From contig NZ_AQPH01000003.1 of assembly GCF_000442515.1 (NCBI RefSeq), positions 1-64,000 of the forward strand: DNA of 64,000 nucleotides. The letters are read 5' to 3'. A program made the translations under genes and the position numbers. Below, in pieces: positions 7,503 through 28,542 of the stretch. Numbering within the stretch: position 1 is the first letter of the stretch; every line of letters starts with the position of its first letter. The notes below the pieces were generated by a model that had not been told where the DNA came from, ran no database searches, and saw nothing but the letters and a program-made list of their open reading frames with translations. This DNA is from Magnetospirillum fulvum MGU-K5. GTDB taxonomy: Bacteria > Pseudomonadota > Alphaproteobacteria > Rhodospirillales > Magnetospirillaceae.

Positions 7503-10481
<2,979 letters not shown>

Positions 10482-11863: not shown

Positions 11864-12247
11864 ATGACCAGCATTGCAAAACGGGCGGTCATCGCCGAAG
11901 ACAACCAGATATTGCGGGAGATCATCGCTCGCGCTTTGGCCTGGACCGGGAATTGGGAGATCGTGAAGGTCGCCGGCGGGGTGGAGGCCTTGGCGACGAT
12001 CGGGGCGCACGGGGCTGGTCTTGCCATTCTTGATTGGAAGATGGCGAGCATGGACGGGCTTGAATGCACCCGGCGCATCCGGGCGGGAGAGGAGGGAGCC
12101 GATCCCGCCCTGCCGGTGATCCTGGTGACCGCTGCGGGTCAGGAACTGACCGAGGAGATGGCTCGCGGCGCCGGGGTGAACAAGCTGATCCGCAAGCCGT
12201 TCTCGTTGGCCCAATTGTATTCCGCGATCCAAGATATCGCCGGGTGA
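11864..12247 (+). CDS. single-domain response regulator
   Basis: A 127-residue receiver with no output domain. The acidic pair lies at IAEDN near the start, the phospho-acceptor Asp is in AILDWKM, the conserved Thr is in ILVTAA and the Lys in LIRKPF. GAAGG lies just before ATG 11864. It is 42 bp after the receptor-like gene and probably takes phosphate from the hybrid kinase's Hpt domain or from a CheA. It converges on the leftward cluster ending at 12290. Confidence 0.9.
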   Translation: MTSIAKRAVIAEDNQILREIIARALAWTGNWEIVKVAGGVEALATIGAHGAGLAILDWKMASMDGLECTRRIRAGEEGADPALPVILVTAAGQELTEEMARGAGVNKLIRKPFSLAQLYSAIQDIAG

Positions 12248-12289
12248 TCGCCACTGGCGAGAACGCCGCCCCAGGGTAATCCGGCTTGG

Positions 12290-14071
12290 TCAGACGCGGG
12301 TCGGGTTGTCATCGGCGTGCCCATCCGGTTGGCTCCGGATCGACGCGGCAATGGTCTTCAGCAGAGTCTCGGACGAAACCGGCTTTGACAAAAAGGCGGA
12401 GGCACCGGCTTGTTCCGCCCGGGCCTTGATGTCGGACTCGCCCGATCCGGTGATCGCCAACAGCGGCAGGGTGGGCCAGCGGGCGCGGGCCTGCGAGATC
12501 AGTTCAACCCCATCACCGTCGGGCATCATCAGGTCGGTCAGCACCAGATCGGCGGATGCCGTGTCGAGAAAGGCCAAGGCCTCGCGCGCCGAGGCCGCCT
12601 CGCGGGGGCGGTATCCCGCCCGGTCCAGAATCCGCACCACCCCGCTTCTGATTCTTGAATCGTCATCGACCACCAGGATCACCCGCCCATCGCCTGCCGG
12701 GATGGCCGGGGCGGCGGCTGAGGCGGCGGCGGTAACGACAGTGCTGATCGGGAAAAACAGATCGAAGGTGGTGCCCGGCCCTCCCTCGCGGAGCGCGATC
12801 GTGCCCTTCCACGATTCGATGATGCCCCGGACGATTGACAGGCCGAGACCCGTTCCCTTGCCCACGCCCTTGGTGGTGAAGAACGGGTCGAAGATCCGGC
12901 CGACCACGGCGGGCGGGATGCCGGGTCCGTCATCCGAGACCGACAGGCGAAGATAGCGGCCTTCGGGCACGGCGAGCCGCAGCGCCTCGGTCTTGCCCAG
13001 GTCGAGCGGGTCGAGGGCGACGCTAACGCGGCCTTCGCCCGTCATCGCGTCGGCGGCGTTGCCGACCAGATTGCGCAGGATCTGCGACACTTCCCCGGCA
13101 TTGGCCTCGGTCGTGGCGTCGCCAGCGCGGTCAAGGTCGGCGATCAGGGCCACGCCCGCAGGCAGCGTGGTCCGCAGCCGGTCGAGTTCGACCGCGACGG
13201 TCGGCCCCAACCGCACCGTTTCCCGCCGCATCGCGTTGCGTCGGCTAAAGGCGAGAATGCCGCGCACCACGCCAGCGGCGGTGTTGGCGCTATCGACGAT
13301 TATCTGGGCGTTCTCGACGATGTCGGGCTGGTCGGGATGATCCTCCTGGATGAACTTGGCGGCGTAGAGAATCGGTTGCAGCAGATTGTTGATCTCGTGG
13401 GCGATGCCGCCAGCCAATTGACCCAGACTCTCCAGCTTCTGGCGTTGCTGGCGCGCTTCGGCCAGCGCCAGTTGCTCGGTGACGTCGTGGAGGGCGACGA
13501 TTCCGTCTCCCTGCTGGAATGGGCAGATCACCAGTTTGAAGCGGCGGCCCGACGCGAACGGGCGGCACTCCGCCACCAGAATCCGTCGGTTGCGTAGCGC
13601 GGCGGCGAGGTGATCCCTGCGGGCGAGGGGGGCGAGATCGGCCAGCAGGTTGTCGAGGGTCGATGGCGGCGGGCCGTCGGTGACGGGGAGGGCGGCGGGC
13701 GCGTCCCAATCTTCCACCGCGATGTGTCCATCGGCGAAAAAGCGGAGGAACAAGGGGGGGCCGTGCTCGGGGGTCTCGGCCGGGCGCAGGCCGATATTCT
13801 CCGTCGTGGTTCGCCAGGCGACCATCAGTTCGGACAGGCAGATCGTCGCGGCGCTGACCACCTCGTCGGATTGGGTCGGAGCGAGGCGCAGGGCTTCGCT
13901 CAACCCGGCGCAATGGACGTCCAGGACTCCTTCGAGCGGCAGCCCGGACACCGCCATCATCCGCCCCAGGTCGCCGATCGATTCAAGAATTGCTTCATCG
14001 GGGGCGGCAACAAATTCGGTCTGAAGTCGGCCGAAGCATTCCTCGGGGTCGATCGGATGGCGGGCTGGCAT
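12290..14071 (-). CDS. soluble hybrid histidine kinase with RsbU_N-like domain
   Basis: A 593-residue kinase without membrane segments. The first about 80 residues (FGRLQTEFVAAPDEAILESI, then LPLEGVLDVHCAGLSEALR) match the RsbU N-terminal domain, which in Bacillus binds RsbT. A PAS-like segment follows, then HisKA with GIAHEINNLLQP (His near 226), HATPase ([27 protein letters not shown]) and a receiver with VLTDLMMPDG (Asp near 513). ATG 14071 has AAAAGG upstream; the frame extends to 14251 inside the preceding gene. As the last gene of the leftward run, it is the best candidate output of the RsbT-like kinases. In some Gram-negative stressosome loci a histidine kinase likewise follows rsbX. 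Confidence 0.8.
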   Translation of the reverse strand: MPARHPIDPEECFGRLQTEFVAAPDEAILESIGDLGRMMAVSGLPLEGVLDVHCAGLSEALRLAPTQSDEVVSAATICLSELMVAWRTTTENIGLRPAETPEHGPPLFLRFFADGHIAVEDWDAPAALPVTDGPPPSTLDNLLADLAPLARRDHLAAALRNRRILVAECRPFASGRRFKLVICPFQQGDGIVALHDVTEQLALAEARQQRQKLESLGQLAGGIAHEINNLLQPILYAAKFIQEDHPDQPDIVENAQIIVDSANTAAGVVRGILAFSRRNAMRRETVRLGPTVAVELDRLRTTLPAGVALIADLDRAGDATTEANAGEVSQILRNLVGNAADAMTGEGRVSVALDPLDLGKTEALRLAVPEGRYLRLSVSDDGPGIPPAVVGRIFDPFFTTKGVGKGTGLGLSIVRGIIESWKGTIALREGGPGTTFDLFFPISTVVTAAASAAAPAIPAGDGRVILVVDDDSRIRSGVVRILDRAGYRPREAASAREALAFLDTASADLVLTDLMMPDGDGVELISQARARWPTLPLLAITGSGESDIKARAEQAGASAFLSKPVSSETLLKTIAASIRSQPDGHADDNPTRV

Positions 14072-14084
14072 CGGCGCGGCCTTT

Positions 14085-14660
14085 TCAATGCGGGCGCAAC
14101 TGGGCGATAACGACGCAGGAATCATCGGTGCCCTTGGTGTTTCGCTGCAACAGGTCGAGGGCGAGGGCGTCGATGTCGGATGCGCCGGGATCAAGGCCGT
14201 CGAGGGACAGGCGGTCGGCCAGTCCATCGGTCCACAAGGCCAGGGTGTCACCGGGACGGCAGGGAAGGGTGAGCGGCGTCACCCGCCGCGACCCGGCCCC
14301 GACGATGCCGGGCATCGCGTCCAGCCGCTGGATGTGCCAGCCGATCAGGGCGGCACGGGTGTTGCCGATTGCTGCATAGGTCAGGCGTCCCCGCGAGGGG
14401 TCGATCACCGCGACGCCTACCGCCGCGCCGCGCGTCGGAGCCAAAGCGCGATGCAAGCCCTGGAACAGGTCGGGCAATGGCTGGCTGCGATGAGACCCCA
14501 CATAGGCGATCGCGGCCTCGGCGGCCTGGGCTGCGTCGGCTCCGTGGCCCAAACCGTCGGCAATCGTCAGCAGCACGCCGGTTTCGGTCGTCCAGGACGC
14601 AGCCATGTCACCGCATCGTTCCGCCGCATTGGCCGAGGCCCGCGCGATGCCGACCCTCAT
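14085..14660 (-). CDS. rsbX: RsbX-like PPM serine/threonine phosphatase
   Basis: A 191-residue single-domain SpoIIE/RsbX-type phosphatase. Metal-binding motifs are visible: ERCGDM near residue 16, TIADGLGHG, LWTDGLAD and GTDDSCVV. In stressosome loci RsbX resets the complex by dephosphorylating RsbR and RsbS. ATG 14660 overlaps the stop of the upstream kinase gene as ATGA; ATG 14666 two codons earlier is possible. Lack of any sensor domain favours RsbX over RsbU. Confidence 0.85.
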   Translation of the reverse strand: MRVGIARASANAAERCGDMAASWTTETGVLLTIADGLGHGADAAQAAEAAIAYVGSHRSQPLPDLFQGLHRALAPTRGAAVGVAVIDPSRGRLTYAAIGNTRAALIGWHIQRLDAMPGIVGAGSRRVTPLTLPCRPGDTLALWTDGLADRLSLDGLDPGASDIDALALDLLQRNTKGTDDSCVVIAQLRPH

Positions 14661-15076
14661 AGCCATAGCCGGGCCACCACGCGGGTTCCGATGCCGGGGC
14701 TTGAACTGATCTCGAATTCGTCCATCAGCCGCCGGGTGCCGGGCAGCCCGCTGCCCAGGCCGCCATTCTCTGAGACGCCATCGCACATGGCGTGGTCGAT
14801 GTCGGCGATGCCGGGGCCATCGTCGCTGGCCACCAGTTCGAGACCGACCCGGCCGGGCGCATCCAGCGGGGACAGGCTGATGATGCCGCCGTGGGTGGCG
14901 TGGAACACCAGATTGGTTCCCAATTCGCTGACGGCCGTAGCAAGGCGATAGGCGGCGGCGCGGCTGAAGCCCAAGGCCTGAGCCAGCGCCAACGCCGCCT
15001 GTCGGGCGTGCGAGATATCGACTTCGCGTGTCACCACGATCTCGATCTGGCGGAGTTTGTGGGCGGAGTCTGGCAT
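14657..15076 (-). CDS. second RsbT-like GHKL serine kinase
   Basis: A 139-residue protein with a complete GHKL ATP site: SELGTN (N box), SDDGPGI (G1), and GGLGSGLPGTRRLMDEFEI (G2), very close to Bacillus RsbT. ATG 15076 overlaps the previous stop as TGATG; the frame is open to 15307, inside the upstream gene. It is one of two adjacent RsbT-like kinases. Retained catalytic motifs suggest both are active, possibly with different partners (RsbS versus another STAS protein). Confidence 0.85.
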   Translation of the reverse strand: MPDSAHKLRQIEIVVTREVDISHARQAALALAQALGFSRAAAYRLATAVSELGTNLVFHATHGGIISLSPLDAPGRVGLELVASDDGPGIADIDHAMCDGVSENGGLGSGLPGTRRLMDEFEISSSPGIGTRVVARLWL

Positions 15077-15489
15077 CAGCGTGCCTTTCGCCGCATCGCG
15101 AGGGTCACCTGGGTCAGGCCGGGGCGTGATTCGATCGCCAGCGAATCGACCAGTTTCGCCGCGCCGGGCAGACCCATCCCCAGGCTGTTGCCGGTACTGA
15201 ACCCTGGACTCATCGCCCGTTCGATCTCGGGAATGCCGGGACCGTGGTCGGTGACCTGCACGGTGATCCGATGATGCCCCTCTTCCTGGCAGGCGCTGAT
15301 CTCGCATCGCCCGCCGCCGCCATAATGCAGGGCATTGCGGGCGATTTCGGAAATCGCGGTAGCAAGACGGGTCTGGTCGGCCAGCCCCAGCCCCAGCGCC
15401 GCCGCCGCCATCCGCCCGGCCTGACGGGCGCGCACCACGTCTTCGGGGGTGGCGATCAGGACGACACTGGAGGAATCAGTCCCGCGCAT
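15076..15489 (-). CDS. rsbT: RsbT-like switch kinase
   Basis: A 137-residue GHKL kinase directly after rsbS, the normal position of rsbT. The N box is SEIARN, G1 is TDHGPGI, and the glycine-rich lid is SLGMGLPGAAKLVDSL. RsbT normally phosphorylates RsbS and RsbR in the stressosome and is then released to act on a downstream partner. ATG 15489 is preceded by AGAGGAT and overlaps rsbS by 14 bp, implying translational coupling. Confidence 0.87.
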   Translation of the reverse strand: MRGTDSSSVVLIATPEDVVRARQAGRMAAAALGLGLADQTRLATAISEIARNALHYGGGGRCEISACQEEGHHRITVQVTDHGPGIPEIERAMSPGFSTGNSLGMGLPGAAKLVDSLAIESRPGLTQVTLAMRRKAR

Positions 15490-15892
15490 TGGCCGATCCT
15501 CTTTCGCACCTGGGGCGGTCGTCATCCTCGTCCCCGGTCGCATCAAGGCGGCGTTTCAGCTTTTCGACTCCTTGCTCGACGTCGAGGGCGGTGAGCACGT
15601 CATGCAGGTCGCGACCCATTTCGATCAGCGACAGCGCCACCATCGGACTCATGCCGGTGATGACCACCTCGCCTCCCATCAGACGCGCCATCCGGGCGGT
15701 TTCAGACAGAATCCGGGTCATGTAGGAATCGACCACGTCCAGCGCGGTGATGTCGAGCAGCACCCCCAAGGCCCGCGAATCGCCGAGCTGCTTCAGGATG
15801 TCAACCTGAAGGGTCAGAGCCTGGTCGTCGGTGATGTCCGACTGGATCGAGGTCAGCAGAATGTCGCCCAGGCGGAGAATGGGGATGCGCAT
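15476..15892 (-). CDS. rsbS: RsbS-like STAS protein
   Basis: A 138-residue single STAS-domain protein. The phosphorylatable Ser is kept in LLDITALDVVDSYMTRIL, aligning with Ser59 of Bacillus RsbS (DIVDSF), and VVITGMSPMVA follows. The C-terminus has a charged tail (EDDDRPRCERG). ATG 15892 has GGAGG at the right distance. It lies between rsbR and rsbT as in other stressosome loci and would form the scaffold that sequesters RsbT. Confidence 0.88.
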   Translation of the reverse strand: MRIPILRLGDILLTSIQSDITDDQALTLQVDILKQLGDSRALGVLLDITALDVVDSYMTRILSETARMARLMGGEVVITGMSPMVALSLIEMGRDLHDVLTALDVEQGVEKLKRRLDATGDEDDDRPRCERGSANARD

Positions 15893-15903
15893 AACGTCCT
15901 CCG

Positions 15904-16731
15904 TCACCCGATGGGCCGAATCTGGCACTGCAACAAACGCAAAGCTTCGGCGAACCCGGCCCGCAGCGTACCGCGCGTCCGCATCGTGCGCAGATCGACG
16001 TCGAGCTTGACCAGGGTCTGGGCCGCCTCAGGGCTGAATCCGGTGACGATGATCTCGGCACCCAGCATCCGGGCGGCAGAGACGACGTTGGTCAGGTGCA
16101 GCGCGACCCGCGTGTCGATCACCGGAACGCCGGTGACGTCAAGGATCGCCACCCGCGCCTGCTCGCGCGAGATCGCGTTCAGCATTTCCTCCATGATGTG
16201 CTGGGCGCGGGCGGTGTCGATCACGCCGACCAGCGGCATCATCACCACCTCGTCCCAAATCAGCAGCGATGGGGTCGAGATTTCCAGCATCGCGTCGCTT
16301 TGGCGGGTGATGATCTCTTCCCGGGCGCGCATGAAGGCTTCGAAGGTGAGAATCGACAAGCCGTCAATCACCTCGCTCAAGGTGGCGCTTTCCCGGCGCC
16401 AGCGGTCGGGATCGGCACTGTATTCGGCGGCGATCGCTGAATCGGCTGCCGCTTTTAGCCCCAGGATCAGCCGCCCGGTGGACGAGGGCGAATAGCCTTC
16501 ACGGGCACGGCTGGCGCTGACCTCGATCATGTGTTTGGTCAGGTCGTGAAAGGTCGGAGCCTTGATGTCGGGGGGGCCGTCGCTTTTCAGGGCGCGGATC
16601 AGGCGTTCGAGCAATTCGCGGATCATCGGCTCGGTTTCGGAATCACCGTCGCCTGCTTCGGCCAGACGGTCGATCCACGCCGCGATGATCTTGTCTTTGT
16701 GCAGGGAGAGAACGTCACTCAGCGTTTTCAT
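15904..16731 (-). CDS. rsbR: RsbR-like stressosome sensor (RsbRD_N + STAS)
   Basis: A 275-residue protein. The helical N-terminal half (SLHKDKIIAAWIDRL, then HDLTKHMIEVSASRAREGY) resembles the RsbRD N-terminal sensor domain rather than a globin. The C-terminal STAS domain has ILDVTGVPVIDTRVAL and IIVTGFSPEAAQTL; both Thr residues corresponding to the RsbRA phosphosites (VDT and LTG) are present. ATG 16731 overlaps the upstream receiver's stop as ATGA and has AAAGGA before it. It is the input side of the switch; its signal is unknown. Confidence 0.86.
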   Translation of the reverse strand: MKTLSDVLSLHKDKIIAAWIDRLAEAGDGDSETEPMIRELLERLIRALKSDGPPDIKAPTFHDLTKHMIEVSASRAREGYSPSSTGRLILGLKAAADSAIAAEYSADPDRWRRESATLSEVIDGLSILTFEAFMRAREEIITRQSDAMLEISTPSLLIWDEVVMMPLVGVIDTARAQHIMEEMLNAISREQARVAILDVTGVPVIDTRVALHLTNVVSAARMLGAEIIVTGFSPEAAQTLVKLDVDLRTMRTRGTLRAGFAEALRLLQCQIRPIG

Positions 16732-17114
16732 GGCAGGTCCTTTCCAATGCAGTGCAGCGCGTCCTTCATCGCGGTTTGCAGTTCTTCCGGATCGATTGGC
16801 TTCATCAGGGTCACCATCGCGCCTGCGGCCTCGGCGTCGTCGAGCGACCCGGCCAGCGACGTTTGTGGAGACCCTCCGCTCATCGCCACTACGGCCAGCG
16901 ACGGATTGATGCTTCGGGCCTTGTGGATCAAAGCAAGTCCGCCGCTGCCCGGCATCCATACGTCCGAGAGGAGGATATCGACCCGCTCCGTCTCCAGCAG
17001 GCCAAGCGCTTCTTCGCCGCTGCTCGCTTCGACCACCTCATATCCGGCCCGTGTCAGCGCGCGGGATATCACCATCCTCACCACCGCCACGTCATCGACC
17101 ACTAAGATGCGCAT
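16728..17114 (-). CDS. single-domain response regulator before rsbR
   Basis: A 128-residue receiver (VVDDVAVVRM; phospho-acceptor Asp in LLSDVWMPGSGG; Lys in TLMKPID). Its start overlaps the CheZ-like gene (TAATG) and its stop overlaps rsbR (ATGA), so it sits exactly at the join between the chemotaxis and stressosome halves. This makes it the natural candidate for carrying phosphate from CheA to the RsbR/S/T complex, an inference from position. Confidence 0.88.
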   Translation of the reverse strand: MRILVVDDVAVVRMVISRALTRAGYEVVEASSGEEALGLLETERVDILLSDVWMPGSGGLALIHKARSINPSLAVVAMSGGSPQTSLAGSLDDAEAAGAMVTLMKPIDPEELQTAMKDALHCIGKDLP

Positions 17115-17875: not shown

Positions 17876-18247
17876 TTATCCATTGGGCAGGATCTGTTTG
17901 ACGACTCTCAGCAGATCATCCGGCTGTACCGGCTTGACCAGCCACCCGGTGGCCTTGGCGGCACGGGCCTCATCGCGCTTGGATTGCTGGGATTCGGTGG
18001 TGACCACCAGGATCGGGATGAACTGAAGCCCGGCCATGACGCGGACTTTGCGGATCAGCTCGATGCCGTTCATTCCGGGCATGTGGATATCGGTGATGAT
18101 CAGGCCCGGCTTCAGGCCCTTCTCCAACTGAGCGACGGCGTCTTCTCCGCTAGACGCCTTGGCGATGCCGTATCCGGCCTTGCCCAGGATCGTTTCCATA
18201 CTCATCAGGATGGTAGCGGAATCGTCGATGAGGAAGATCGTGCTCAT
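17876..18247 (-). CDS. cheY: CheY-like response regulator
   Basis: A 123-residue receiver (FLIDDSATIL; Asp in LIITDIHMPGMNG; Thr in LVVTTES; Lys in WLVKPVQ). ATG 18247 follows AAAGGA and overlaps the ParA-like gene's stop as ATGA. It is the second stand-alone CheY of the operon and lies directly upstream of the CheZ-like gene. Confidence 0.9.
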   Translation of the reverse strand: MSTIFLIDDSATILMSMETILGKAGYGIAKASSGEDAVAQLEKGLKPGLIITDIHMPGMNGIELIRKVRVMAGLQFIPILVVTTESQQSKRDEARAAKATGWLVKPVQPDDLLRVVKQILPNG

Positions 18248-19047
18248 GGGGCGTCCTTTGCGTCCAGGGAAGGGGGGTGCCATCGCCACAAGCGGATCAA
18301 CTCGTCGGCGAGCAGGAAATAGTCCATCGCGCCGCGCGATCGGGGCGCGAACGCGCGGATCGGCCGCCCGGCCGAGAACGCTTCGGCCAGCAGGATGTCG
18401 CTACGAATCCCGCGCAGCATCCGGTCGGGGCCGAACTGGCGGGCGATCTCGGCAAGAACGGTTCGGTGGTGGGTGATCCGGGCGTTGTGCATTACCGGCA
18501 GCAACCCGACCAGCTTCAGCCGGGGATTCTCGGTCGAGGCGATGCGAAAGAACAGGCGCGACAATTGCTTCACCCCCTCGCCGGACAGCGCGTGCGGCAA
18601 CATCGGGATCAGCACGCCGTCGGCGGCGGCCATCGCGTTCATCAGCACGAAATCGAGCGAGGGGGGCGTGTCGAGGATCACCACGTCGAAGGCTTGCGTC
18701 AGTTCCGGGCGCCGCAATTGACGGGCCAGGGTGTCGATCGCCGCCGGGCCTTCACTTCCGTCGAATAACGGGTCGGCAGGGGCACAGAACAGCCCCGGCC
18801 AGGCGGTGGGGGTTGTCGCCGCCAGCAAATCGCCGCCGCCGGGTCGGAAGATGTGGTGGGCGGTGGCACCGCCGCGCGGGGCTGCGACGCCCAGGCCGAG
18901 GCCGGAATGGCCCTGGGTGTCGAGATCGACCACCAGGGTGCGCGCGCCACGCGCCGCCCATTCGGCAGCGAGATTGACCGCGGTGGTGCTCTTTCCGCTT
19001 CCGCCCTTGCGGTTCGAGACGGTCAGCACCCGCAGGCCGCTGGTCAT
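18244..19047 (-). CDS. ParA-like ATPase of the chemotaxis operon
   Basis: A 267-residue deviant Walker ATPase: NRKGGSGKST (signature Lys plus P-loop), VVDLDTQGHSG, and VVILDTPPSLD as Walker B. It overlaps its neighbours by 4 bp on both sides. ParA-family proteins within che operons (ParC in Vibrio, PpfA in Rhodobacter) position receptor arrays in the cell. The soluble receptor at the head of this operon makes that role likely, since PpfA acts on a cytoplasmic cluster. There is no ParB partner here. Confidence 0.88.
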   Translation of the reverse strand: MTSGLRVLTVSNRKGGSGKSTTAVNLAAEWAARGARTLVVDLDTQGHSGLGLGVAAPRGGATAHHIFRPGGGDLLAATTPTAWPGLFCAPADPLFDGSEGPAAIDTLARQLRRPELTQAFDVVILDTPPSLDFVLMNAMAAADGVLIPMLPHALSGEGVKQLSRLFFRIASTENPRLKLVGLLPVMHNARITHHRTVLAEIARQFGPDRMLRGIRSDILLAEAFSAGRPIRAFAPRSRGAMDYFLLADELIRLWRWHPPSLDAKDAP

Positions 19048-19286
19048 GATTGCCCCTCGCCCAAGGCGGCGATCAGGCGGACGACGAATGGCTCGGTGGG
19101 CGGTACCGCCACCGGGCGGCCGCTGGCGGCCACCACCTGCAAGACGGCCGAATGAATCAGCGTGCAGGAGCCAAGATCGAACGCGGCATCGGGGATGGCC
19201 TGGACGAATTCCAGCAGCGGTAACGCCTCTTCGACGCCGCAGACGCCGTCCAGCACCGCCCGGCTCTCTTCGAAGCGGATCGGCAT
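19044..19286 (-). CDS. small STAS-like protein between cheA and parA
   Basis: An 80-residue protein with a short STAS-type fold pattern (RAVLDGVCGVEEALPLLEF, then FDLGSCTLIHSAVLQVV). The residue at the usual phospho-serine position appears to be in the CTLIHSA segment. ATG 19286 overlaps the cheA stop as TGATG. STAS proteins are anti-sigma antagonist-like, so it could be bound or phosphorylated by one of the RsbT-like kinases encoded downstream. That would be a direct molecular link between the two halves of the operon, but it is inference. Confidence 0.65.
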   Translation of the reverse strand: MPIRFEESRAVLDGVCGVEEALPLLEFVQAIPDAAFDLGSCTLIHSAVLQVVAASGRPVAVPPTEPFVVRLIAALGEGQS

Positions 19287-21925
19287 CACAGCAGCTCCTT
19301 CAGGTTAAGGACGAGCAGAACGCGCCCGTCGCCCAGCAGCGCCGTGCCCGCGTAGCCTGGAATGCCGGACAAGATCCCTTCGAACGGTTTCAAGATGATG
19401 TCCATTCCCTCGCGGAAATGATCGACGACCAGCCCGGTGACCGCGTTGCCGACGCGGACCACCAGAACAGAATCCTCCTGATCGTCATCGCCGAACCAGG
19501 CCGGTGGGGCGATTCCCAGCAGGCGATCGAGCCGCAGCAAGGGAACGATGGTGTCGCGCAGGACGAACGCCTCGGACTGCTTGAAGCGGCGGACCTGACT
19601 GCGGTGGATGCGGACGGTTTCGGCGATATGGTCCATCGGGATGCCGAACAACATCCCGCCTCCCGCCTCGACCATCATCACCCGGGTCACCGCCATGCTG
19701 AGCGGCAGGGACAGACGGGCGGTGGTGCCTTGCCCCTTGACCGAGGTCAGGGAGACGGTGCCGCCGGTCCGTTCGACCGCCGTCACCACCACATCCATTC
19801 CCACCCCCCGGCCCGACAGGTCGGACACCTGGGCGGCCGTGGAAAATCCGGGCAGGAACACCAGATTGACCGCCTGCTGGTCGCTCATCCGTTCGGCCTG
19901 TTCGGCGTCAATCAGTCCTTTGGTCACCGCCGCCTTGCGGATTTTGTCGGGGTCGATGCCGCGTCCGTCGTCCCTGACTTCGATGATGACCTGATCGCTT
20001 TCCTGGAAGGCGCGGATCAGCACGGTGGCTTCGGGGGCCTTGCTCGCCGTGACGCGGTCGTCCGGGAGTTCGATGCCATGATCAAGCGCGTTGCGGATGA
20101 TGTGCAGCAGCGGGTCGCCCAGGACCTCGATGATATTCTTGTCGGCGGCGGTGTCCTCGCCCTCGATCACCAGCGAGACCCGCTTGCCCAGTTTGCGTGC
20201 GACGTCGCGCACCAAACGGGGGAAACGGTCGAGCACTTCCGACACCGGCAGCATCCGCACCGCCATGATCGCCGCCTGCATCTCCTGGGCAAGGCGGTCG
20301 ATCACCGCGAACAGATCCTTGATCTCGCGGGCCATCTCGCGTGAGCCATGGACCGATTCGGCGCGACGGGCGAGGAAGGGCAGGCTGTTTTTCGACACCA
20401 CCAATTCGCCGATCAAAGTCATCAGCGCATCGACCTTGGCCTGATCGACTTTCAGCACCCGGGGGCCGCCGGTCGTTCGTAGCTCGCCCTGCGCCGCCAG
20501 CCCCGTGTCGATCGCAGCGGCGCGGTGGACGGTGTCGTCCGGCCCGTCGAGCAGGTGGGCGAGGACGGCGAGCATTGGTCCCGGATTGGCCTGGGCGCGG
20601 GCGGACTCAACCGCATCGTCCCAGGATTCGAGGTCGATTTGGCGGACGGTTCCGCCCAGCACGTTGCTTACCGTGTGGGCGACCGAGGGCAGGCGAAGGG
20701 TGAACGCGTCGGGATCGAGGTCGAGGGTCAGGATCGTGCGCTGGGCGGCCAGGATGTCGCGGGCCAGTGGGGTAAGACGCGCCGCGGCTCCGCCCGCCGG
20801 GGAGGAGGCGGGAAGGGGAGCCGCTGGGGCCTCGGCGGAACCGTGGACCGGAGGGGGCGCGGCGTCAGCGGAGATGGCTGCTGTGCCGCGGGGTGGGACC
20901 GGCTGGGCTTGCCCCGTGGCCAGACTGGCGATCAGCGCTTTGGCCCAGGCCGGTTCGGGCGACGGCAGGGCGAGAACCGCCGCCAGCCAGCGCAGGGACG
21001 AGGCGGCGAACAAAGCGGGGGAGGTCAGTTCAGTCAGTGCGGCAACGGCGCGGCGCAGACGCTCCCACTCCCCCGCTTCAACCAGGGCGTCGGCCTCGTC
21101 GAGGAAATCGTCCAGCGCCAGACCGCCATTGGGGGCACCGGCGGGCCGGATCAGAAGGTGCGGCGGAACGTCGCCCAGCCGGGTCTGTTCGATCACGTAA
21201 CGAAACACCGACTCGACCGTCTCGGCCGAGGTCGAGGCCAGGGCGCGCAGCCGCAGAACGCAGCGATAGGGGTCAAGAGAGGCCGAATCCGGCCAGGGCT
21301 CGCGCGGACGAATCTCCAGTCCGTGCAGACCGGGAATCTGCCGCAGCAGATTGACCGGGTCTTCGCCGCTGAAGAAGCAATCCTCCGCCGGTTCGTACTC
21401 GATCGCCACCAGTGGAGCGCCGGTTCCCCAGGCGCGGAAGGCGTCGAGCCGGTCGGCCTCGGGCAGGTCAGGGACCCAATCGATCGACGCGGCGGCTACG
21501 CCGGGGGCTGAATCCGGGGCCGGGGCGGGACCGGCCGGAATCGGCAGCAGGGAGCGCAGATCGGCCGTCATCTCGTGCGATAATCCATCCGCACCGGGGC
21601 CAAGAGTCCCGTCGCTCTCGATATCGTCGATCCAGGCCGCGACCCGGTCGAGCATGTCGAGCAACAGATCGACCATCTCCGAGGTCAGCGATAATTGACC
21701 GCCGCGCACCGCGCTCAACACGTCCTCGCCGGCATGGACCAGCTTGGCGAAGGCGGGGAAGTCGAACAGTCCGACCGATCCCTTCAGGGTGTGGACCGAG
21801 CGGAACACCGTGTTGATGATGGTTTCGTCATCGGGAGATTTTTCCAGCGCCAGAAGACCCGACGCGGCGGCTTGGAGCAGCTCGCGGGCTTCGGCGACGA
21901 ATCGCAGCAGAAGCGGTGTGGTCAT
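19286..21925 (-). CDS. cheA: chemotaxis histidine kinase CheA
   Basis: An 879-residue CheA. P1/Hpt with SVHTLKG (His45); a long middle region of about 380 residues with a P2-like segment and a Pro/Ala-rich linker; P3 dimerisation (VDALMTLIGELVVSKNSL); P4 ATPase (HIIRNALDHGIE, VRDDGRGIDPDKI, LSGRGVGMDVV); and a C-terminal CheW-like P5. It is longer than E. coli CheA (654) because of the P1-P3 region. Its ATG overlaps the cheY stop (ATGA). It would be activated by the double-MA receptor through the triple-CheW protein and would phosphorylate the CheY proteins and CheB. Confidence 0.95.
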   Translation of the reverse strand: MTTPLLLRFVAEARELLQAAASGLLALEKSPDDETIINTVFRSVHTLKGSVGLFDFPAFAKLVHAGEDVLSAVRGGQLSLTSEMVDLLLDMLDRVAAWIDDIESDGTLGPGADGLSHEMTADLRSLLPIPAGPAPAPDSAPGVAAASIDWVPDLPEADRLDAFRAWGTGAPLVAIEYEPAEDCFFSGEDPVNLLRQIPGLHGLEIRPREPWPDSASLDPYRCVLRLRALASTSAETVESVFRYVIEQTRLGDVPPHLLIRPAGAPNGGLALDDFLDEADALVEAGEWERLRRAVAALTELTSPALFAASSLRWLAAVLALPSPEPAWAKALIASLATGQAQPVPPRGTAAISADAAPPPVHGSAEAPAAPLPASSPAGGAAARLTPLARDILAAQRTILTLDLDPDAFTLRLPSVAHTVSNVLGGTVRQIDLESWDDAVESARAQANPGPMLAVLAHLLDGPDDTVHRAAAIDTGLAAQGELRTTGGPRVLKVDQAKVDALMTLIGELVVSKNSLPFLARRAESVHGSREMAREIKDLFAVIDRLAQEMQAAIMAVRMLPVSEVLDRFPRLVRDVARKLGKRVSLVIEGEDTAADKNIIEVLGDPLLHIIRNALDHGIELPDDRVTASKAPEATVLIRAFQESDQVIIEVRDDGRGIDPDKIRKAAVTKGLIDAEQAERMSDQQAVNLVFLPGFSTAAQVSDLSGRGVGMDVVVTAVERTGGTVSLTSVKGQGTTARLSLPLSMAVTRVMMVEAGGGMLFGIPMDHIAETVRIHRSQVRRFKQSEAFVLRDTIVPLLRLDRLLGIAPPAWFGDDDQEDSVLVVRVGNAVTGLVVDHFREGMDIILKPFEGILSGIPGYAGTALLGDGRVLLVLNLKELL

Positions 21926-22329
21926 GAGCGCCCCCCGGCCATCAACCGCGCCAGTTCGGTCAGGGCCTGGGGCGCGACGGGTTTGACCAGATAGAAATTG
22001 GCCCCGGACTGGAAGGCGCGGGTGGCGTCGTCCGGTCCGGCTTCGGTGCTGACGGTGACCGCCGGGACCGAGCGGATCGCCGCCTCGCTGCGGATCGCCC
22101 GCAGCAGGGAATAGCCGTCCATCTTCGGCATGTTGATGTCGACGATCAGCAGGTCATAGGACTGGGCCACGGCCTTCTCGTAGCCTTCGACGCCGTTGGT
22201 GGCCTCCTCGACCGTGAACCCGGCCGCCTCGAGCACGGTGCGGTAATAGAGCCGCATGGTGATTCCGTCGTCGATCACCAGAATACGGGCTCCGCTTGCT
22301 TGAGGTGTGGTGTCGCTCATGGCGTTCAT
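21922..22329 (-). CDS. cheY: CheY response regulator next to cheA
   Basis: A 135-residue receiver (LVIDDGITMRLYY; Asp in LLIVDINMPKMDG; Thr in VTVSTEAG; Lys in YLVKPVA). It overlaps cheR upstream and cheA downstream. Start is ATG 22329 or ATG 22320. Its place between cheR and cheA makes it the primary CheA target. The third position after the second acidic residue is Gly rather than the common Ser/Pro, a minor variation. Confidence 0.93.
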   Translation of the reverse strand: MNAMSDTTPQASGARILVIDDGITMRLYYRTVLEAAGFTVEEATNGVEGYEKAVAQSYDLLIVDINMPKMDGYSLLRAIRSEAAIRSVPAVTVSTEAGPDDATRAFQSGANFYLVKPVAPQALTELARLMAGGRS

Positions 22330-23195
22330 TCCGCTTTCGACGGCTTTTGATAGACAATCGTGTCCTGGAACTTGCGGGGGATAAAAAGCGAGGTCATCCG
22401 GCTCATGCTTTCCGAATGACCCAGGCAGACGAATCCTCCCGGAGAAAGCAATTCGTAGAACATTTCGACGGTTTCGCGCCTCGCCACATCATCGAAATAG
22501 ATCAGCATGTTGCGGCAGAAGATCACATCGACGTTGCGGAAGCGGCGTGTTTGCATCGGGTCAACGACATTGACCAGAGAGAAGTCGATTGAATTGCGCA
22601 AATCTTCGCAAATCTGCCAGCTATCTTCCCCCCGGCTAAGAAAATATTTAGATAAAAGGGCCGGGGGGACGCGCTGCAACGAGCGCGCGCCATAAAGTCC
22701 CGTCCGCGCTTCGTTCAGGATGCGGCTGTCGATGTCGGAGGCGTAAATCTCGATGTCCCAATTGTCGGCCTGGTCCCAGCGCTCCAGGATGCTAAGCGCG
22801 ATCGAATACGGTTCCTCGCCCGACGAGCAGGGAATCGACCAGATACGGATCGGGTCGCGCTGAGAGCGGTTGTGGGTTCGGGCGGGCAAAATCCCTTTGA
22901 CCAGAGCTTCGAACTGATAATCTTCACGAAAGAAATAGGTTTCGTTGACAGTCATCGAATTGACGAGATGTTGAAGCTCCTCGCCCGATGCCTGGAATCT
23001 CAGGAATGTGAAATAGTCGCGGAATGACTCTGTTTCTGTTTTGTCTATTCTGTCGGCAATTCGTCTTTCGACATAATATTTTTTTGTGTCTTGAAACTGA
23101 ATGCCTGTCTTGCGATAAAAATACTCGCAGAATTTGGCGTATTCGTCTTCGGTAATGGTCGGGGGCGAGCGGGGCTGACGGGCGGAGATGGTCAT
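22326..23195 (-). CDS. cheR: chemotaxis protein methyltransferase CheR
   Basis: A 289-residue CheR. The N-terminal helical domain has FCEYFYRKTGIQF and VNSMTVNETYFFR; the SAM-binding domain has IPCSSGEEPYSIA and DVIFCRNMLIYFD. It adds methyl groups from S-adenosylmethionine to receptor glutamates. The C-terminal region shows no NWETF-type pentapeptide-binding signal that I can see. Codon use is more AT-rich near the 5' end than in its neighbours. Confidence 0.95.
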   Translation of the reverse strand: MTISARQPRSPPTITEDEYAKFCEYFYRKTGIQFQDTKKYYVERRIADRIDKTETESFRDYFTFLRFQASGEELQHLVNSMTVNETYFFREDYQFEALVKGILPARTHNRSQRDPIRIWSIPCSSGEEPYSIALSILERWDQADNWDIEIYASDIDSRILNEARTGLYGARSLQRVPPALLSKYFLSRGEDSWQICEDLRNSIDFSLVNVVDPMQTRRFRNVDVIFCRNMLIYFDDVARRETVEMFYELLSPGGFVCLGHSESMSRMTSLFIPRKFQDTIVYQKPSKAE

Positions 23196-23197
23196 GG

Positions 23198-23821
23198 TCA
23201 GCCCCCCCGGATGCGGCGGATTGTCGTGTCGATCGCGAAGGTGAGGAACGGTTCGTCGCCAAAACGAGTCCGCAGCGCCTCAAGCGCCTCGATCGCGTCC
23301 GGGGTTCCGACCTCGGCCAGGGCATCGACGGCGGCGGCGCAGACATTGACGTGTGGTTCGTGGCGCAGCACATCGACCAGCAGGGCCGGGGTTTCGGGAT
23401 CGCACAGGGCTCCCAGGATGTTGACGGCGAAGATGCGGACGTCACTGTCGGGATCGTCGAGCAGATCGCGGACATGCGGCGTGACCGTGCCGCGCATCTC
23501 CTGCAACGCCTCGATCGTGCCGTTGCGCAGGGCGGCATCGTCGCTCCGCAGGTGGACCAGCAGCCGGGCCACCACCGCCGGGCTTTCCTGGCGGATCAGC
23601 ACGGTGAACAGCACCGCGCGAACCGAAGGACTAGTTTCGATATCGAGACGATCGCACAGGGCCATCGCCGCCTCGGGGTGGCTGGTGAGCGCCCGCGCCG
23701 CGCCGCGCCGAACCGCAGGCTCGGGTGAGTGCAGGTTGGCGAGGAGCGAGGCGCGATCGTCGCCGGGCGCAGCGGGCAGGGATTCCGGCGGTGCCGACGG
23801 TTTTGCCCTAAGCAAGGCCAT
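23198..23821 (-). CDS. HEAT-repeat protein of the chemotaxis operon
   Basis: A 207-residue all-helical protein built of about five HEAT/PBS-lyase-like repeats (SPEPAVRRGAARAL; SDDAALRNGTIEAL; DPDSDVRIFAVNILG; HVNVCAAAVDAL). It overlaps cheB by 14 bp and is 2 bp before cheR, so it is co-translated with the adaptation enzymes. HEAT proteins generally mediate protein-protein contacts. Here it may regulate CheB/CheR or bind the receptor. It has no catalytic motif. Confidence 0.8.
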   Translation of the reverse strand: MALLRAKPSAPPESLPAAPGDDRASLLANLHSPEPAVRRGAARALTSHPEAAMALCDRLDIETSPSVRAVLFTVLIRQESPAVVARLLVHLRSDDAALRNGTIEALQEMRGTVTPHVRDLLDDPDSDVRIFAVNILGALCDPETPALLVDVLRHEPHVNVCAAAVDALAEVGTPDAIEALEALRTRFGDEPFLTFAIDTTIRRIRGG

Positions 23822-24911
23822 GGCGTTTCTCCCGCGAGCCGGGCAGCCAGGACAGAAGCTGCGCGGTGATCCGGTCGCAGGGAAGAACCAGATTTGCCCC
23901 GCCCCGTTTGACCAATTCGCCCGGCATGCCCCAGACCACGCTGGTCGCCTCGTCCTGGGCGATGGTTCGTCCTCCCTTGCGGAACAGGGTGTTCATCGCT
24001 TCGGCACCGTCGTCGCCCATCCCGGTCAGCATCACCCCGATCACCTGCTCGGCGGGCAGCGCGTGCATCGCGCTCTCGACCAGACGCGCCACGCTCGGAT
24101 GCCAGAGATATTGCTCGCCCGAGGGCATCGGATTGATCACATAGCGGGTCGCCCGTCGCCCGATCACTACGTCCGCATCCCCCTTGCCGATGTAAACCAC
24201 CCCCGCTTCCAGCGGCATCTGACAGGACGCCTCGATCACGGTGGCGGCGCAAAGCTCGTTGAGGCGGCGGGCGAAGACGCTGGTGAAGCTACCCGGCATG
24301 TGCTGGGCCACCACCACCGGCCAGGGAAAGTCGGCGGGAAGGCGGGGAAGAATTTGCTCCAGCGTGCCCGGCCCTCCGGTCGAGACCCCGATCACCACCA
24401 CGCCGAAGAGACCGGGGTCGGAGGAGGGAAGGGCGGCAAGGGGGCGCCGCTCGGTCCGCGAGTTGGTCCGGTCGCGTTCCGCGCGCAGTCGGCCGGACAG
24501 CCCGATCGAACGGCGGATGCGGGCGCGCACCGCGCCGGTGACCTTGGCGATGATCTCGTTCTCGATCCGGTTGACGTTCAGCGAAATGGTGCCTTCCGGC
24601 TTCTGGATGAAGTCGACGGCGCCGAGCGCCAGCGCCTGAAGGGTGATCTCGGCCCCTTCCTCGGTCAGCGACGACACCATCACCACCGGCAACGGGCGGC
24701 GGGCCATGATGTGCGACAGGCAGGTGAGGCCGTCCATTTCCGGCATGTTGATGTCGAGCGTGATGACGTCGGGGGAAAATGTGTCGAGCGCCGACAACGC
24801 CTCAACCCCGTTGCGGGCCAAGGCGACCTCGCACCCGGCCCGCTGCTCCAGGATTTCCCGAAGATGGCGGCGCATCAGGGCCGAATCGTCGACAACGAGA
24901 ACTTTTGTCAT
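23808..24911 (-). CDS. cheB: chemotaxis methylesterase/deamidase CheB
   Basis: A 367-residue CheB. The receiver has VVDDSALMRR and VITLDINMPEMDG (phospho-acceptor Asp). After the linker the methylesterase shows the catalytic Ser in IGVSTGGPG, His in VAQHMPG and Asp in TGMGDDGAE. ATG 24911 starts MTKVLVVDD; the frame continues upstream to 25034 without family similarity. It removes methyl groups from receptor glutamates, opposing CheR, when phosphorylated by CheA. Confidence 0.95.
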   Translation of the reverse strand: MTKVLVVDDSALMRRHLREILEQRAGCEVALARNGVEALSALDTFSPDVITLDINMPEMDGLTCLSHIMARRPLPVVMVSSLTEEGAEITLQALALGAVDFIQKPEGTISLNVNRIENEIIAKVTGAVRARIRRSIGLSGRLRAERDRTNSRTERRPLAALPSSDPGLFGVVVIGVSTGGPGTLEQILPRLPADFPWPVVVAQHMPGSFTSVFARRLNELCAATVIEASCQMPLEAGVVYIGKGDADVVIGRRATRYVINPMPSGEQYLWHPSVARLVESAMHALPAEQVIGVMLTGMGDDGAEAMNTLFRKGGRTIAQDEATSVVWGMPGELVKRGGANLVLPCDRITAQLLSWLPGSREKRHGLA

Positions 24912-24978
24912 GACCTTGCGTCCATCGCCGCCATCCTTGGGCGGGGGCGCCCGGTGACGCCCCCGTGCCGTATCACGC

Positions 24979-26577
24979 TTACCGGATCGTCTCGCCCATC
25001 GCCGCCAGCTCCCGGACGTCCAGCAACTGTTCAATGTCGAGCAGCAGGATCATCCGATTCTGGCGCTCGATGTTGGCGACACGGCGGATCAGCCGTTGCT
25101 GTTCGTCCGACAGCGCCGGAGCCGGTTCGATCACCGACGCGGGGATGCGGATCACCTCGGATACTGAATCGACGATGAAGCCGGTTCGTACCCCTTTGAT
25201 GGTGTAGACCATGATCCGCTGGCGGTCGGTGCGGTCCATCGGCGGCAGGCCAAAGCGGCGCCGCTGGTCGACCACCGGCAGGACCACACCGCGCAGGTTG
25301 ACGACGCCTTCGATGAAGTCCGGGGTTTTGGGCACCCGGGTCAGTTCATCGGGGACGCGGACGATCTCCTGCACGGCGTCGATCGGCACGCCGTATTCCT
25401 CGTTCATCAGCCGGAAAGCGACGAACTGTTCCTCGTCGTCTGCCGCAGTGGCGCGGCTCTGGGTGGTGTCGTCGCTCATCGGGCCCTGCTCCCCCTCCGC
25501 GTCGTGGGCGATGGCGCGGATGTCGCTGACGTTGAACATCTTTTCCGCTGACAGAATCGACACCAGACGTTGCCCCTGATTGAGGCGACAGATGGATTCG
25601 ATTTCGCCCAGAGTGCCGCCGCGTGCGAGAAGCGGTGGCATCGGGTCGATCACCGAGCGGCCAACCCGCAGCACTTCCTTGACGCTGTCCATCACCACCC
25701 CGACCGAGGCGGTACCGCCGTCGAGGGCGATGACGACGATCTTGTTGGCGTCCGACACCTCTTGCGGGGGAAGGCCGAACATCCGCCGCAGCGAGACCAG
25801 CGGCAGCAGGCGGTTGCGCAACGTCATCACCCCCAGGACATGGGCGGCGGTATTGGGGACCTCGGTGATCTGTTCGGGGATCTGGACGATCTCCTGCACC
25901 CGTTCGATCGGCAGCGCGTATTCCTGGTCGGCGACGTCGAAACTGACCAGTTGGCTTTCGTCTTCAAGGTCGCTGCCAGGACGAGTGTCCTGGCGGTCGT
26001 CGCCCAAATCGCCGCTCCGGTCGCCAAGTCCGCTGCCCGCCGCGTTGGCGCGGGCGAAGGCTTCGAACTCGCGCGACACCACCTTGGCCGAATCCAGGAT
26101 CATCACCATCGACTGGCCGTCCTTGCCCTTGATCATGCCGGTCAGAAGGTCGGTATCGACGGTGCCCTGGATCGATCCCGCCGCCTCGATCCGGCTGGAT
26201 TCGACCGAGACGACGTTGGCGACCCGATCGACGACCAGCCCGACCGGGCGGCCCTGGTCGAGCACCACCACGCGGGTGGCGTCGTCATGCGCTGCCGCCT
26301 CGATCCCGAATACGTGGCGCAGCCGGACCACCGGCAGCACCGAGCCCCGCAGATTGGCCAGTCCTTCCAGCGCGGGCGGACTGAGCGGGACATGCACCAC
26401 GTCCGGCATCCGGATGATTTCCTGGACCGCCGAGAGCGGGACGGCGAAGCTTTCCGCCGCGACCTGGAAGATCACGAACTGATGGGTTTCGCCGTCGTCG
26501 TCGCGCCCGGCCTGACCCACCGCCACGATATCGGGCGGAGCGTCAGGGGCGTCCAGCGTCTGTGCGATTTCGGACAT
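24979..26577 (-). CDS. triple CheW-domain coupling protein
   Basis: A 532-residue protein with three complete CheW domains in tandem, at about 30-175, 205-350 and 380-525. Each carries the V(Q)EI(I/V)R(M/I/V)P hallmark (VQEIIRMPD, VQEIVQIPE, VQEIVRVPD) and an NLRG/TLRN turn. CheW normally exists as a single domain linking receptor and CheA. A fused trimer could set receptor:CheA stoichiometry or bridge neighbouring signalling units. It is the only stand-alone CheW of the operon, 38 bp after the double-MA receptor gene. Confidence 0.93.
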   Translation of the reverse strand: MSEIAQTLDAPDAPPDIVAVGQAGRDDDGETHQFVIFQVAAESFAVPLSAVQEIIRMPDVVHVPLSPPALEGLANLRGSVLPVVRLRHVFGIEAAAHDDATRVVVLDQGRPVGLVVDRVANVVSVESSRIEAAGSIQGTVDTDLLTGMIKGKDGQSMVMILDSAKVVSREFEAFARANAAGSGLGDRSGDLGDDRQDTRPGSDLEDESQLVSFDVADQEYALPIERVQEIVQIPEQITEVPNTAAHVLGVMTLRNRLLPLVSLRRMFGLPPQEVSDANKIVVIALDGGTASVGVVMDSVKEVLRVGRSVIDPMPPLLARGGTLGEIESICRLNQGQRLVSILSAEKMFNVSDIRAIAHDAEGEQGPMSDDTTQSRATAADDEEQFVAFRLMNEEYGVPIDAVQEIVRVPDELTRVPKTPDFIEGVVNLRGVVLPVVDQRRRFGLPPMDRTDRQRIMVYTIKGVRTGFIVDSVSEVIRIPASVIEPAPALSDEQQRLIRRVANIERQNRMILLLDIEQLLDVRELAAMGETIR

Positions 26578-26615: not shown

Positions 26616-28542
26616 TCAGGCCCCGGCCTGAAGTTCGTCGGCGAGCGAGGCGATTTCCTCGATCGCGGCGGCCAGTTCCTCGGCCCCCTTGGCCTGCTGC
26701 TTGGCGGCGGCGGCGGCTTCGGTCGAGGCTCGGCTGGATTGCTGGGCAGCGGCGGCGATTTGTTCGACCCCGGTCTGCACTTCCTTGACCACGCGAACGA
26801 TTTCGTCGTTGCCGTCCAGAATCTCGCGACTGCCCTCAAGCACCACCGCCATGTCGCGGGAACAGGTTTCAAGGTCGGCGGTCGTTGCCTTGTTCTTTTC
26901 CACTTCCAGGGCGGCGGCGGCGGCGATCTCTTCGAGATCGCGGCGGACGGTGCCGATCTGGTCCTGGATTGCCTTCACCGTATCCTTGATGCGGTCGGCG
27001 TTTTCGGCCGAATCACGGGCCAGATTGCGGATATCGGTGGAGACCACGGCAAATCCCTTGCCGAATTCGCCAGCGCGTGCCGCTTCGACCGAGCCGTTGA
27101 CCGCCAGCATGTTGGTCTGGATCGACACCGTGGTGATGGCATCGACGATCTTGTCGATGCGGCGGCTGACCTGCTCGAGCGCTCCCATCTGTTCGCGGCT
27201 CTGGCGACCGGATTCGACCGAGGCCAGCACGCCATCAATCAATTCGTTGACGGCGATCGTGTTGCGGCTGAGCAATTCCGAAATCTGAGTGCCTTTCTCG
27301 ACCAACACACGGGCGCGCGTGGCCGAAACCTGGGCGCCCTTTTCGATTTGAGCGATGGCGGCGGACGATTGGTGGGTGGCGCTGCCCTGCTGCTGCGCAC
27401 CGCGCTGAATCTGGTCGAGGGCGGTTTGAATCTGGGCGGCGGCGCGGTTGATTTCCTCGACGGCGCTCGACAATTCCTCTGCGGCGGAGGCCACTTCCTC
27501 GCTGCTTTTGGCGATGTCGGTGGAATTCTTCAATTCGTCGGCCAATTCCGACAATTCCTGCGCCGCCTGCTCCGATTGTTGCAGCGCGGTACCCTGTTGG
27601 TCGACGGTCTTCAGCGATTCCTGACAGGCGGCGCTCTGCTCCTCGGCGGCAGCGGCGATCACCTCGGACCCCTTCTGTGCTTCCTTCGCGGCGGCTTCGC
27701 TTTCTTCCGAGGCATTGACGATATCGCGGCAGCCAGCGCCGATCTCGGTCATGTCGGCGCGAATCTGATCTAGCTGGGCGGCGATTTGACGCCCTTTTTC
27801 CACCTCCTGCTTGGCGGTGGAGGCCGAGGCATTGATCCCTTCGGCGATCGCCTTGACGTCCTTCTGAATCTGGCTGACCAGATCCTGGATGTCGCGGGCG
27901 CTCTTTTCCGAGGTCTCGGCCAGGGTCCGCACTTCGTCGGCGACGACGGCGAAGCCCTTGCCGTGCTGTCCGGCCCGGGCCGCTTCGATCGCGGCATTCA
28001 GCGCGAGAAGGTTGGTCTGGTCGGCGATGCGGGCGACGGCCTTGACCACTTCCGAGATGGCGGCGGCCTGACGTTCCAGTTCCTCGACCATTTCGACAGA
28101 GATGAGCTGGCGTTCGGCGGCGCGGCCGATGGCGAGGATCGAGTTGGTGATCTGCCCGGCGACGCTACCAAGCAGGCTTTGCAGCATGTCGACCTTGACC
28201 AGAGAAACGTCGGCGTTTTCCTTGGCCTTACGGATTAATCCGCCCCCGTGGGTCACCGCCTTCATCGATTGCTGGGCGGCACCGGCGGCCTCTTCGGCGC
28301 CCGAAGCGATCTGTTCCGCCGCTTTGCGCAATTCCTCAGAGGCCGATGCCGCCTCGGCGATGCCGCTGGCCAGTTCGGTGGTTGCCGCGGCGATTCGTTC
28401 GGCTGCTTTTTGCTGGCGGGCGAAGGTGCGGGCTTTTCTTTTTTTGGGCTTCGGCCAGAAGCCGACTGCCGCCGAGCTCTTCGGAAGCGAGGGGCTTCGC
28501 CGCCGCCGGGCTGGCCATCTGGTTTTTTTTGACGAGAGCCAT
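26616..28542 (-). CDS. soluble double-MA chemoreceptor, frameshifted at an A7 tract
   Basis: The receptor has no membrane segment and two MCP signalling tips: [18 protein letters not shown] with [16 protein letters not shown], then a divergent [18 protein letters not shown] with [15 protein letters not shown]. The start [12 protein letters not shown] (ATG 28542, AAAGGGA upstream) is in a different frame from the body. Dropping one base in the A7 run at 28439-28445 joins EAQK to [20 protein letters not shown] and then the receptor in one frame of about 640 residues. A second run, A8, lies at 28523-28530. Without the correction the body could start only at a TTG near 28331. Transcriptional slippage, phase variation, a real mutation or a read error are all possible. 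It heads the che operon. Confidence 0.8.

Follow-up and report, generated by a model that had tools for sequence, protein, structure and literature searches.

A putative sigma-free stressosome with a second GHKL protein, encoded in an F9-type chemosensory cluster of Magnetospirillum fulvum

Sequence comparisons of a 64,000-nt stretch of Magnetospirillum fulvum MGU-K5 DNA (the window; NZ_AQPH01000003.1, positions 1–64,000, assembly GCF_000442515.1, a draft in 178 contigs) identify a predicted sigma-free stressosome operon, in which genes for RsbR, RsbS, two GHKL proteins (T1 and T2) and an RsbX-type phosphatase (X) are followed by a gene for a hybrid histidine kinase headed by a putative RsbU_N domain. 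The operon lies in an F9-type chemosensory cluster. We consider it reasonably probable that T1 acts on the RsbU_N-headed kinase and that T2 and X make up a reset enzyme, with a tentative common output shared with the F9 array. The layout of sigma-free modules has been published before; the unexpected part appears to be the recurring F9-stressosome pairing.

The stressosome operon and its F9-type neighborhood

The genes are read from the minus strand in the order RR1-R-S-T1-T2-X-hybrid histidine kinase (Table 1). They overlap by 4 bases (RR1/R), 14 bases (S/T1), 1 base (T1/T2) and 4 bases (T2/X), and are separated by 11 bases between R and S and by 13 bases between X and the kinase gene. RsbR, with its sensor domain, STAS domain and threonine sites, aligns to the RsbR chains of solved stressosomes (7o0i, 7.5e-32; 7b0u, 1.8e-27) and keeps both IDT threonines, which we take to be the phosphosites. 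RsbS, a lone STAS domain, matches the RsbS structure 6qcm at 1.2e-30, and its D55-S56 pair is invariant in all eight aligned sequences. T1 carries the N box, G1 and lid motifs, and X, a single-domain PP2C phosphatase, matches the solved structures 3zt9 (4.1e-15) and 3w40 (RsbX; 1.3e-7), completing the set of parts of an rsbRSTX module. None of the five proteins R, S, T1, T2 and X reached the cut-off of an NCBIfam model.

A first-pass annotation of this DNA had described the interval 14085–15489 as two adjacent GHKL kinases with N box, G1 and glycine lid. Both kinases are real, with recognized Pfam domains and intact catalytic motifs, and they occupy 15489–14657; the lower part of the interval (14660–14085) encodes the RsbX-type phosphatase, which had gone unmentioned.

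Table 1. Predicted genes of the operon and the adjoining chemosensory cluster, in the order of the minus strand (S, T2 and the output kinase were submitted to Pfam with slightly different ends)
Feature	Coordinates	Strand	Evidence and remarks
DosM-type chemoreceptor with two signalling domains, F9 hallmark	26616..28331	-	Two MCPsignal stretches, 1.6e-63
Concatenated triple CheW, F9 hallmark	24979..26577	-	Three CheW stretches, 1.5e-101
CheB	23808..24980	-	
HEAT-repeat protein	23198..23821	-	
CheR	22326..23195	-	
CheY-like receiver RR3	21922..22329	-	
CheA	19286..21925	-	Hpt, H-kinase_dim, HATPase_c, CheW
81-residue STAS-like protein	19044..19289	-	Directly behind cheA; no Pfam match at E ≤ 1
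ParA-family ATPase	18244..19047	-	
CheY-like receiver RR2	17876..18250	-	
Stand-alone receiver RR1	16728..17114	-	Response_reg 2.6e-22
RsbR: RsbRD_N sensor domain and STAS	15904..16731	-	RsbRD_N 1.6e-14, STAS 2.3e-12 (Pfam)
RsbS: single STAS, DS motif	15476..15892	-	STAS 8.2e-08 (on the longer frame 15476–15928)
T1: RsbT-like switch kinase (putative)	15076..15489	-	HATPase_c 3.6e-13, HATPase_c_2 1.1e-12; groups with first kinases of other modules
T2: second GHKL protein	14657..15076	-	HATPase_c_2 2.4e-11; groups with N-domains of fused RsbX-like phosphatases in the 153-row tree
X: RsbX-type PP2C phosphatase	14085..14660	-	SpoIIE 4.5e-12
Output hybrid histidine kinase (predicted)	12290..14071	-	RsbU_N-like four-helix domain (~13790–14050), then HisKA-HATPase-REC

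Related modules were collected by an RsbR search of 99 genomes including that of M. fulvum (nine matched at E ≤ 0.001, G025 and G063 among them with lone STAS matches and no module), by an RsbS profile search of 386 genomes of the class (15 matched, including M. fulvum) and by a T2 profile search over genome contigs, from which the best 80 of 260 relatives were taken; the T, S and X profiles were trained on the same loci that they score. Three loci (L024, L025 and L026) were removed before counting, being the same places as L061, L062 and L086. The 99 classified loci, including our own, comprise 28 split T1-T2-X modules (two of which, L072 and L073, lie on two contigs of one genome), 24 modules with T2 and X fused, 44 single-kinase modules, over-weighted in Mycobacterium and Bacillaceae, and three without X, proportions that are biased because most loci were drawn with the T2 profile. 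The class sample was collected without reference to T2; its 14 other modules were ten fused T-X, one split and three single-kinase.

By its hallmarks, a triple CheW and a DosM-like receptor with two signalling domains, the chemosensory cluster of the window is assigned to the F9 type. Cluster I of Vibrio cholerae, the class F9 example described in PMC7534058, encodes CheA (VC1397), a triple CheW (VC1402) and DosM (VC1403); cryo-tomography has shown F9 arrays in V. cholerae, and the same source calls their role unclear. In the loci that extend 6 kb or more upstream of the module, CheA, scored by best match to the window proteins on the module strand and not by class (the triple CheW and DosM were checked in the window, not in the other loci), precedes 13 of 20 split modules versus one of 11 fused modules, none of 34 single-kinase modules and neither of two modules without X. 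A Fisher comparison of 15/22 with 1/47 includes two loci with less than 6 kb upstream in which CheA was seen, and treats related loci as independent; the preceding counts are the ones used here. CheA-linked modules occur in Magnetospirillum molischianum, Rhodoplanes serenus, Rhodovulum sp. PH10, Delftia sp. PS-11 and Methylotuvimicrobium buryatense 5G and in MAGs of Methylobacter, Undibacterium, Rubrivivax and Desulfuromonadales. Seven of the 20 split modules are without CheA, and the sole fused locus with CheA (L108) is without the 81-residue STAS-like protein that is found in 14 of the 15 CheA-linked module loci and weakly (1.9e-4) in the last.

A profile of this 81-residue protein, made from 14 homologues, matched five of 386 class genomes and nine of 397 phylum genomes, which together are 12 distinct genomes. 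In the ten of these genomes whose loci were new to the comparison, it follows CheA every time; in nine, the neighborhood is free of S, T and X genes (a T match of 17 bits on the opposite strand in L181 was disregarded), and one contig was too short to judge. Among these nine, G328 and G423 do encode an RsbS module, at another place in the genome; in our own genome and in G362 the protein is linked to a stressosome. In four of the clusters without a stressosome (L181, L182, L187 and L188), the 81-residue protein is followed at a distance of about 1 kb by a hybrid histidine kinase, close to the place expected for the stressosome. In G423, the homologue (C1:2616979-2617212; L170) was read through one TAG and cheA (L180) lies in two open frames; the cluster is possibly decaying or misassembled.

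That nine of the 11 judgeable F9 clusters in this sample have no adjacent stressosome lends weight to the idea that the two systems work separately and are neighbors through shared transfer or co-expression only, as does the lack of a shared domain that would prove contact. We regard this as a serious possibility, though not the probable one, given that a similar gene order recurs among the 13 CheA-linked split loci in Alpha-, Beta- and Gammaproteobacteria and in Desulfuromonadia, and that the pairing is nearly restricted to split modules in our sample. Correlations of Che with Rsb identities over the 15 linked loci reached 0.71–0.77 for CheR versus R, S and T1 (13 loci) and about 0.5 for CheA, with CheB disregarded as its rows are partly wrong proteins; being positive but mixed, they do not prove co-transfer. 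The literature that we surveyed (titles and the starts of abstracts, with subscription papers mostly outside its scope) held no F9-stressosome pairing and no second RsbT beside RsbX, and the pairing may already have been described in the subscription literature.

Between RR2 and RR1, the window also encodes a 251-residue protein (17114–17869, minus strand) that has no convincing Pfam match, is kept in L061 and L062, and contains a QFQDVTRQ motif resembling one in the MCP at 10482–11822.

The second GHKL protein and the phosphatase

In the split-type modules, all 28 T1 and all 28 T2 sequences keep the N-box Glu and Asn, the G1 Asp-Gly-Gly and the two lid glycines without exception, and the N+4 residue is His in 27 of the 28 T2 versus Tyr in 24 of the 28 T1. 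The anti-sigma factor SpoIIAB is the best solved relative of both proteins (T1 is also related to histidine kinases), so that, going by sequence, an RsbW-like role is conceivable for either.

The relation of T2 to the fused phosphatases was followed in two trees. In a 153-row tree, made by a quick method from few columns and with 15 loci omitted as Mycobacterium/Bacillaceae excess or near copies, one starred branch (SH-aLRT 95) unites 27 T2 and 24 fused N-domains with just three other rows, apart from T1; the exceptions are the T1 of L087 and L101, which are placed elsewhere, and the T2 of L087, which falls among the fused domains. At L089 and L103, the sole recognized kinase belongs to the T2 group of this tree, and T2-X may thus occur without T1. 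In a more careful tree of 77 rows, rooted with RsbW, the 14 split T1 group with nine of the ten T1 of fused modules (98/91). T2 forms a clade (93/84) and the fused N-domains are basal, the two together not making one clade: an unstarred branch (83/91) places T2 on the RsbT side, and a further unstarred branch (83/90) separates T2 plus fused domains from all remaining RsbT-like rows. Since the T1 of split and fused modules group together, both kinases appear to be old, and on the basis of both trees we rejected the reading of T2 as a recent duplicate of T1.

The fused T-X protein of Dendronalium (L115) was modelled as a single compact unit (pLDDT 89.6, pTM 0.90, 12 aligned rows). The trees, the fused modules and this compact model lead us to infer a single enzyme made up of T2 and X, in which T2 is most likely the detached half of the reset phosphatase of the module.

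A different assignment would make both proteins switch kinases with divided substrates, T1 for RsbS and T2 for RsbR or the reverse, with T2 or both binding RsbU_N and X working alone. Their shared catalytic residues and their common position between S and X would fit such an arrangement, as would the placement of the single kinases of Bacilli on the T2 side of the 153-row tree (branch support 85). We nevertheless hold it to be unlikely, as the relative of T2 is physically tied to the phosphatase in fused modules and the RsbW-rooted tree puts T1 closer than T2 to most single RsbT proteins (87/89).

The first-pass annotation had instead proposed that the second kinase acts on the small STAS protein behind cheA, which would create a second partner switch in the cluster. 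In its favor, the two genes share a cluster, the candidate phosphosite is a serine in the window copy, and the best solved relative of T2 is an anti-sigma kinase, SpoIIAB. However, at this site, placed by eye, the 15 homologues in linked loci have Ser (two), Thr (five), Ala (seven) or Pro (one); eight of the 15 thus lack a hydroxyl group, yet T2 is present in all 15 loci. The protein moreover belongs to nine F9 clusters without S, T or X nearby. This occurrence, together with the variable phosphosite, assigns the 81-residue protein to the chemosensory cluster and makes it a weak candidate for a substrate of T2, and we rejected the proposal as very improbable.

The output kinase and the search for a sigma pathway

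The RsbU_N-like domain of the window kinase falls below the Pfam gathering score (15.7 of 25.5 bits; E 0.26 with the whole protein and 0.017 with the domain alone). A custom profile, made from the N-termini of ten output proteins of other modules and free of window and RsbU rows, finds the window kinase at 2.5e-6 and also finds RsbU-like proteins at sigB-type loci of Bacillaceae (L081, 5.9e-14; L111, 5.4e-13), that of L111 having a phosphatase domain as well. PF08673 matches 28 of the 29 aligned domains at E ≤ 0.1, five of the members being the Bacillaceae RsbU-like proteins. AlphaFold2 models the window domain as a four-helix bundle (residues 11–90, block pLDDT at least 94). A fold search with this model returned the RsbR N-domain 2bnl (Z 8.0, rmsd 3.0, 87 aligned), within the score level that the search tool regards as common; helical bundles match many folds, no match stood out, and the solved RsbU N-domain is absent from the 50 fold matches listed. 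The custom profile supports the earlier suggestion that an RsbU_N-type domain heads the hybrid kinase, despite its score below the Pfam cut-off.

Counting any frame in the locus, an RsbU_N-like protein accompanies 27 of 28 split modules (ten of these 27 being profile seeds), 37 of 44 single-kinase modules, one of three modules without X and one of 24 fused modules. Within these counts, the protein of L090 lies upstream of the module, that of L064 is a 174-residue protein without kinase label, and those of Bacillaceae are RsbU itself. Behind X, 13 of 24 fused, four of 44 single-kinase and none of 28 split modules encode a third T-like domain, which in eight of the 13 fused modules is labelled in the same frame as a histidine kinase. 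These distributions suggest that a tethered T-like domain replaces the T1-RsbU_N contact in fused modules. In L027 (7185–9071, minus strand), as in L141, L142 and L145, a T-like GHKL domain heads a hybrid histidine kinase behind the fused T-X phosphatase, and no RsbU_N-like protein was found in these four loci. L061 (the same place as L024) encodes two consecutive RsbU_N-like outputs at 9931–12249 and 12098–14107, one of GGDEF-EAL type and one a hybrid histidine kinase.

With an RsbU_N-headed hybrid histidine kinase as its output, the module likely signals through a phosphorelay rather than a sigma factor, as had been surmised for this DNA; sigma-free modules of this kind are among those already published (Heinz 2022, PMC9237108). 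An RR1-like receiver is encoded directly upstream of R in the window and at L061, L062, L063, L066, L067, L090, L092 and L149, and behind the output kinase at L068, L077, L078, L091, L094, L105 and L131. Since it adjoins R or follows the output kinase in split modules, RR1 is perhaps the receiver of this kinase; it may also serve CheA. A dCache-PAS-HisKA-REC-Hpt hybrid kinase encoded beside the cluster (7380–10481, plus strand) is a possible phosphorelay partner.

The genes scanned from 7380 to 28331 include no sigma factor, RsbU or further RsbW/T, in agreement with the original remark that the kinases have no sigma, anti-sigma or RsbU phosphatase beside them. In the whole assembly, the sole RsbU_N match at E ≤ 1 is the hybrid kinase itself (E 0.037, below cut-off), and a SigB/F/G model gave four matches, all under cut-off (best 134.6 of 234.35 bits), in a sigma search that covered these types and had others such as EcfG outside its range. 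The assembly encodes three other SpoIIE proteins. On contigs C50 and C11 (L190 and L192), there are two more partner-switch sets, one with a phosphatase (REC-like N-terminus by eye), GHKL and STAS genes and the other with a STAS gene behind a phosphatase-GHKL fusion. A route from T1 to an RsbU-sigma pathway encoded elsewhere, the counter-case raised in the first-pass annotation, would find possible components in these three phosphatases, two of which are fused to, or lie beside, a GHKL domain and have a STAS protein as neighbor, but as none of the three matches RsbU_N by the custom profile and no SigB/F/G match exceeds the cut-off in this draft, we rejected it as the most improbable of the readings considered.

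Proposed mechanism and relation to known systems

In the mechanism that we favor, RsbR and RsbS would form a scaffold that holds T1. Upon a signal, T1 would phosphorylate RsbR and RsbS and leave the scaffold; free T1, as the RsbT proper of the module, would then bind the RsbU_N domain and switch the hybrid histidine kinase, which would feed a phosphorelay, perhaps via RR1. T2 and X would be the two subunits of an enzyme that resets RsbR and RsbS, with T2 docking X on the STAS scaffold and perhaps phosphorylating the scaffold as well. A more tentative part of the proposal is an output shared by the F9 array and the stressosome. A bolder version, which we hold to be possible without thinking it probable, has cytoplasmic F9 arrays as the input layer of the stressosome; both would act on the RsbU_N-headed histidine kinase or cyclase, and T2-X would be an adaptation or reset arm tuned by the array or its receivers.

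If the favored mechanism is true, a common second GHKL protein would make RsbX a two-part enzyme and change the view of how stressosomes are reset. The recurrent gene pairing, in turn, offers a concrete output to test for F9 arrays, and does so in bacteria that are not pathogens.

The module resembles the sigma-free rsbRSTX modules of Gram-negative bacteria described by Heinz 2022 (PMC9237108), with their R, S, T, X order, no RsbU, RsbV, RsbW or sigma factor and a two-component output that is sometimes RsbU_N-like; modules with HisKA/REC outputs and RsbU_N-like domains are listed there and restated in an eLife 2025 article (PMC12143880). Unlike those modules, which are described with one RsbT and a single-domain RsbX, the M. 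fulvum operon has a second GHKL protein between RsbT and RsbX, and an F9 cluster precedes it. RsbU_N as a receiver of RsbT, joined to a histidine kinase or cyclase, is likewise known from the Moorella MtG cyclase and the RsbU_N histidine kinases treated in PMC12143880; here, in contrast, the effector is a hybrid kinase with a receiver of its own, and its contact with RsbT is a prediction. The R, S, T and X parts are shared with the RsbRST-RsbU-RsbVW-SigB pathway and RsbX of Bacillus subtilis, whereas in M. fulvum RsbU, RsbV, RsbW and SigB were not found, T2 is added and X lies directly behind the kinases. On the chemosensory side, the triple CheW, the double-signalling-domain DosM receptor and the CheA cluster are as in V. 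cholerae cluster I as presented in PMC7534058, with the difference that here a stressosome module follows. Stage 1 F7 clusters are stated to carry anti-sigma antagonists (PMC7184735), and in Shewanella the F7 cluster Che1 is encoded with the CrsR-CrsA partner switch that acts on RpoS (PMC9855816). Like the M. fulvum locus, the latter joins a chemosensory cluster to a partner switch; unlike it, it is of another chemosensory class and has RpoS as its output, and the account of it in that source, as far as it concerns this switch, names no stressosome.
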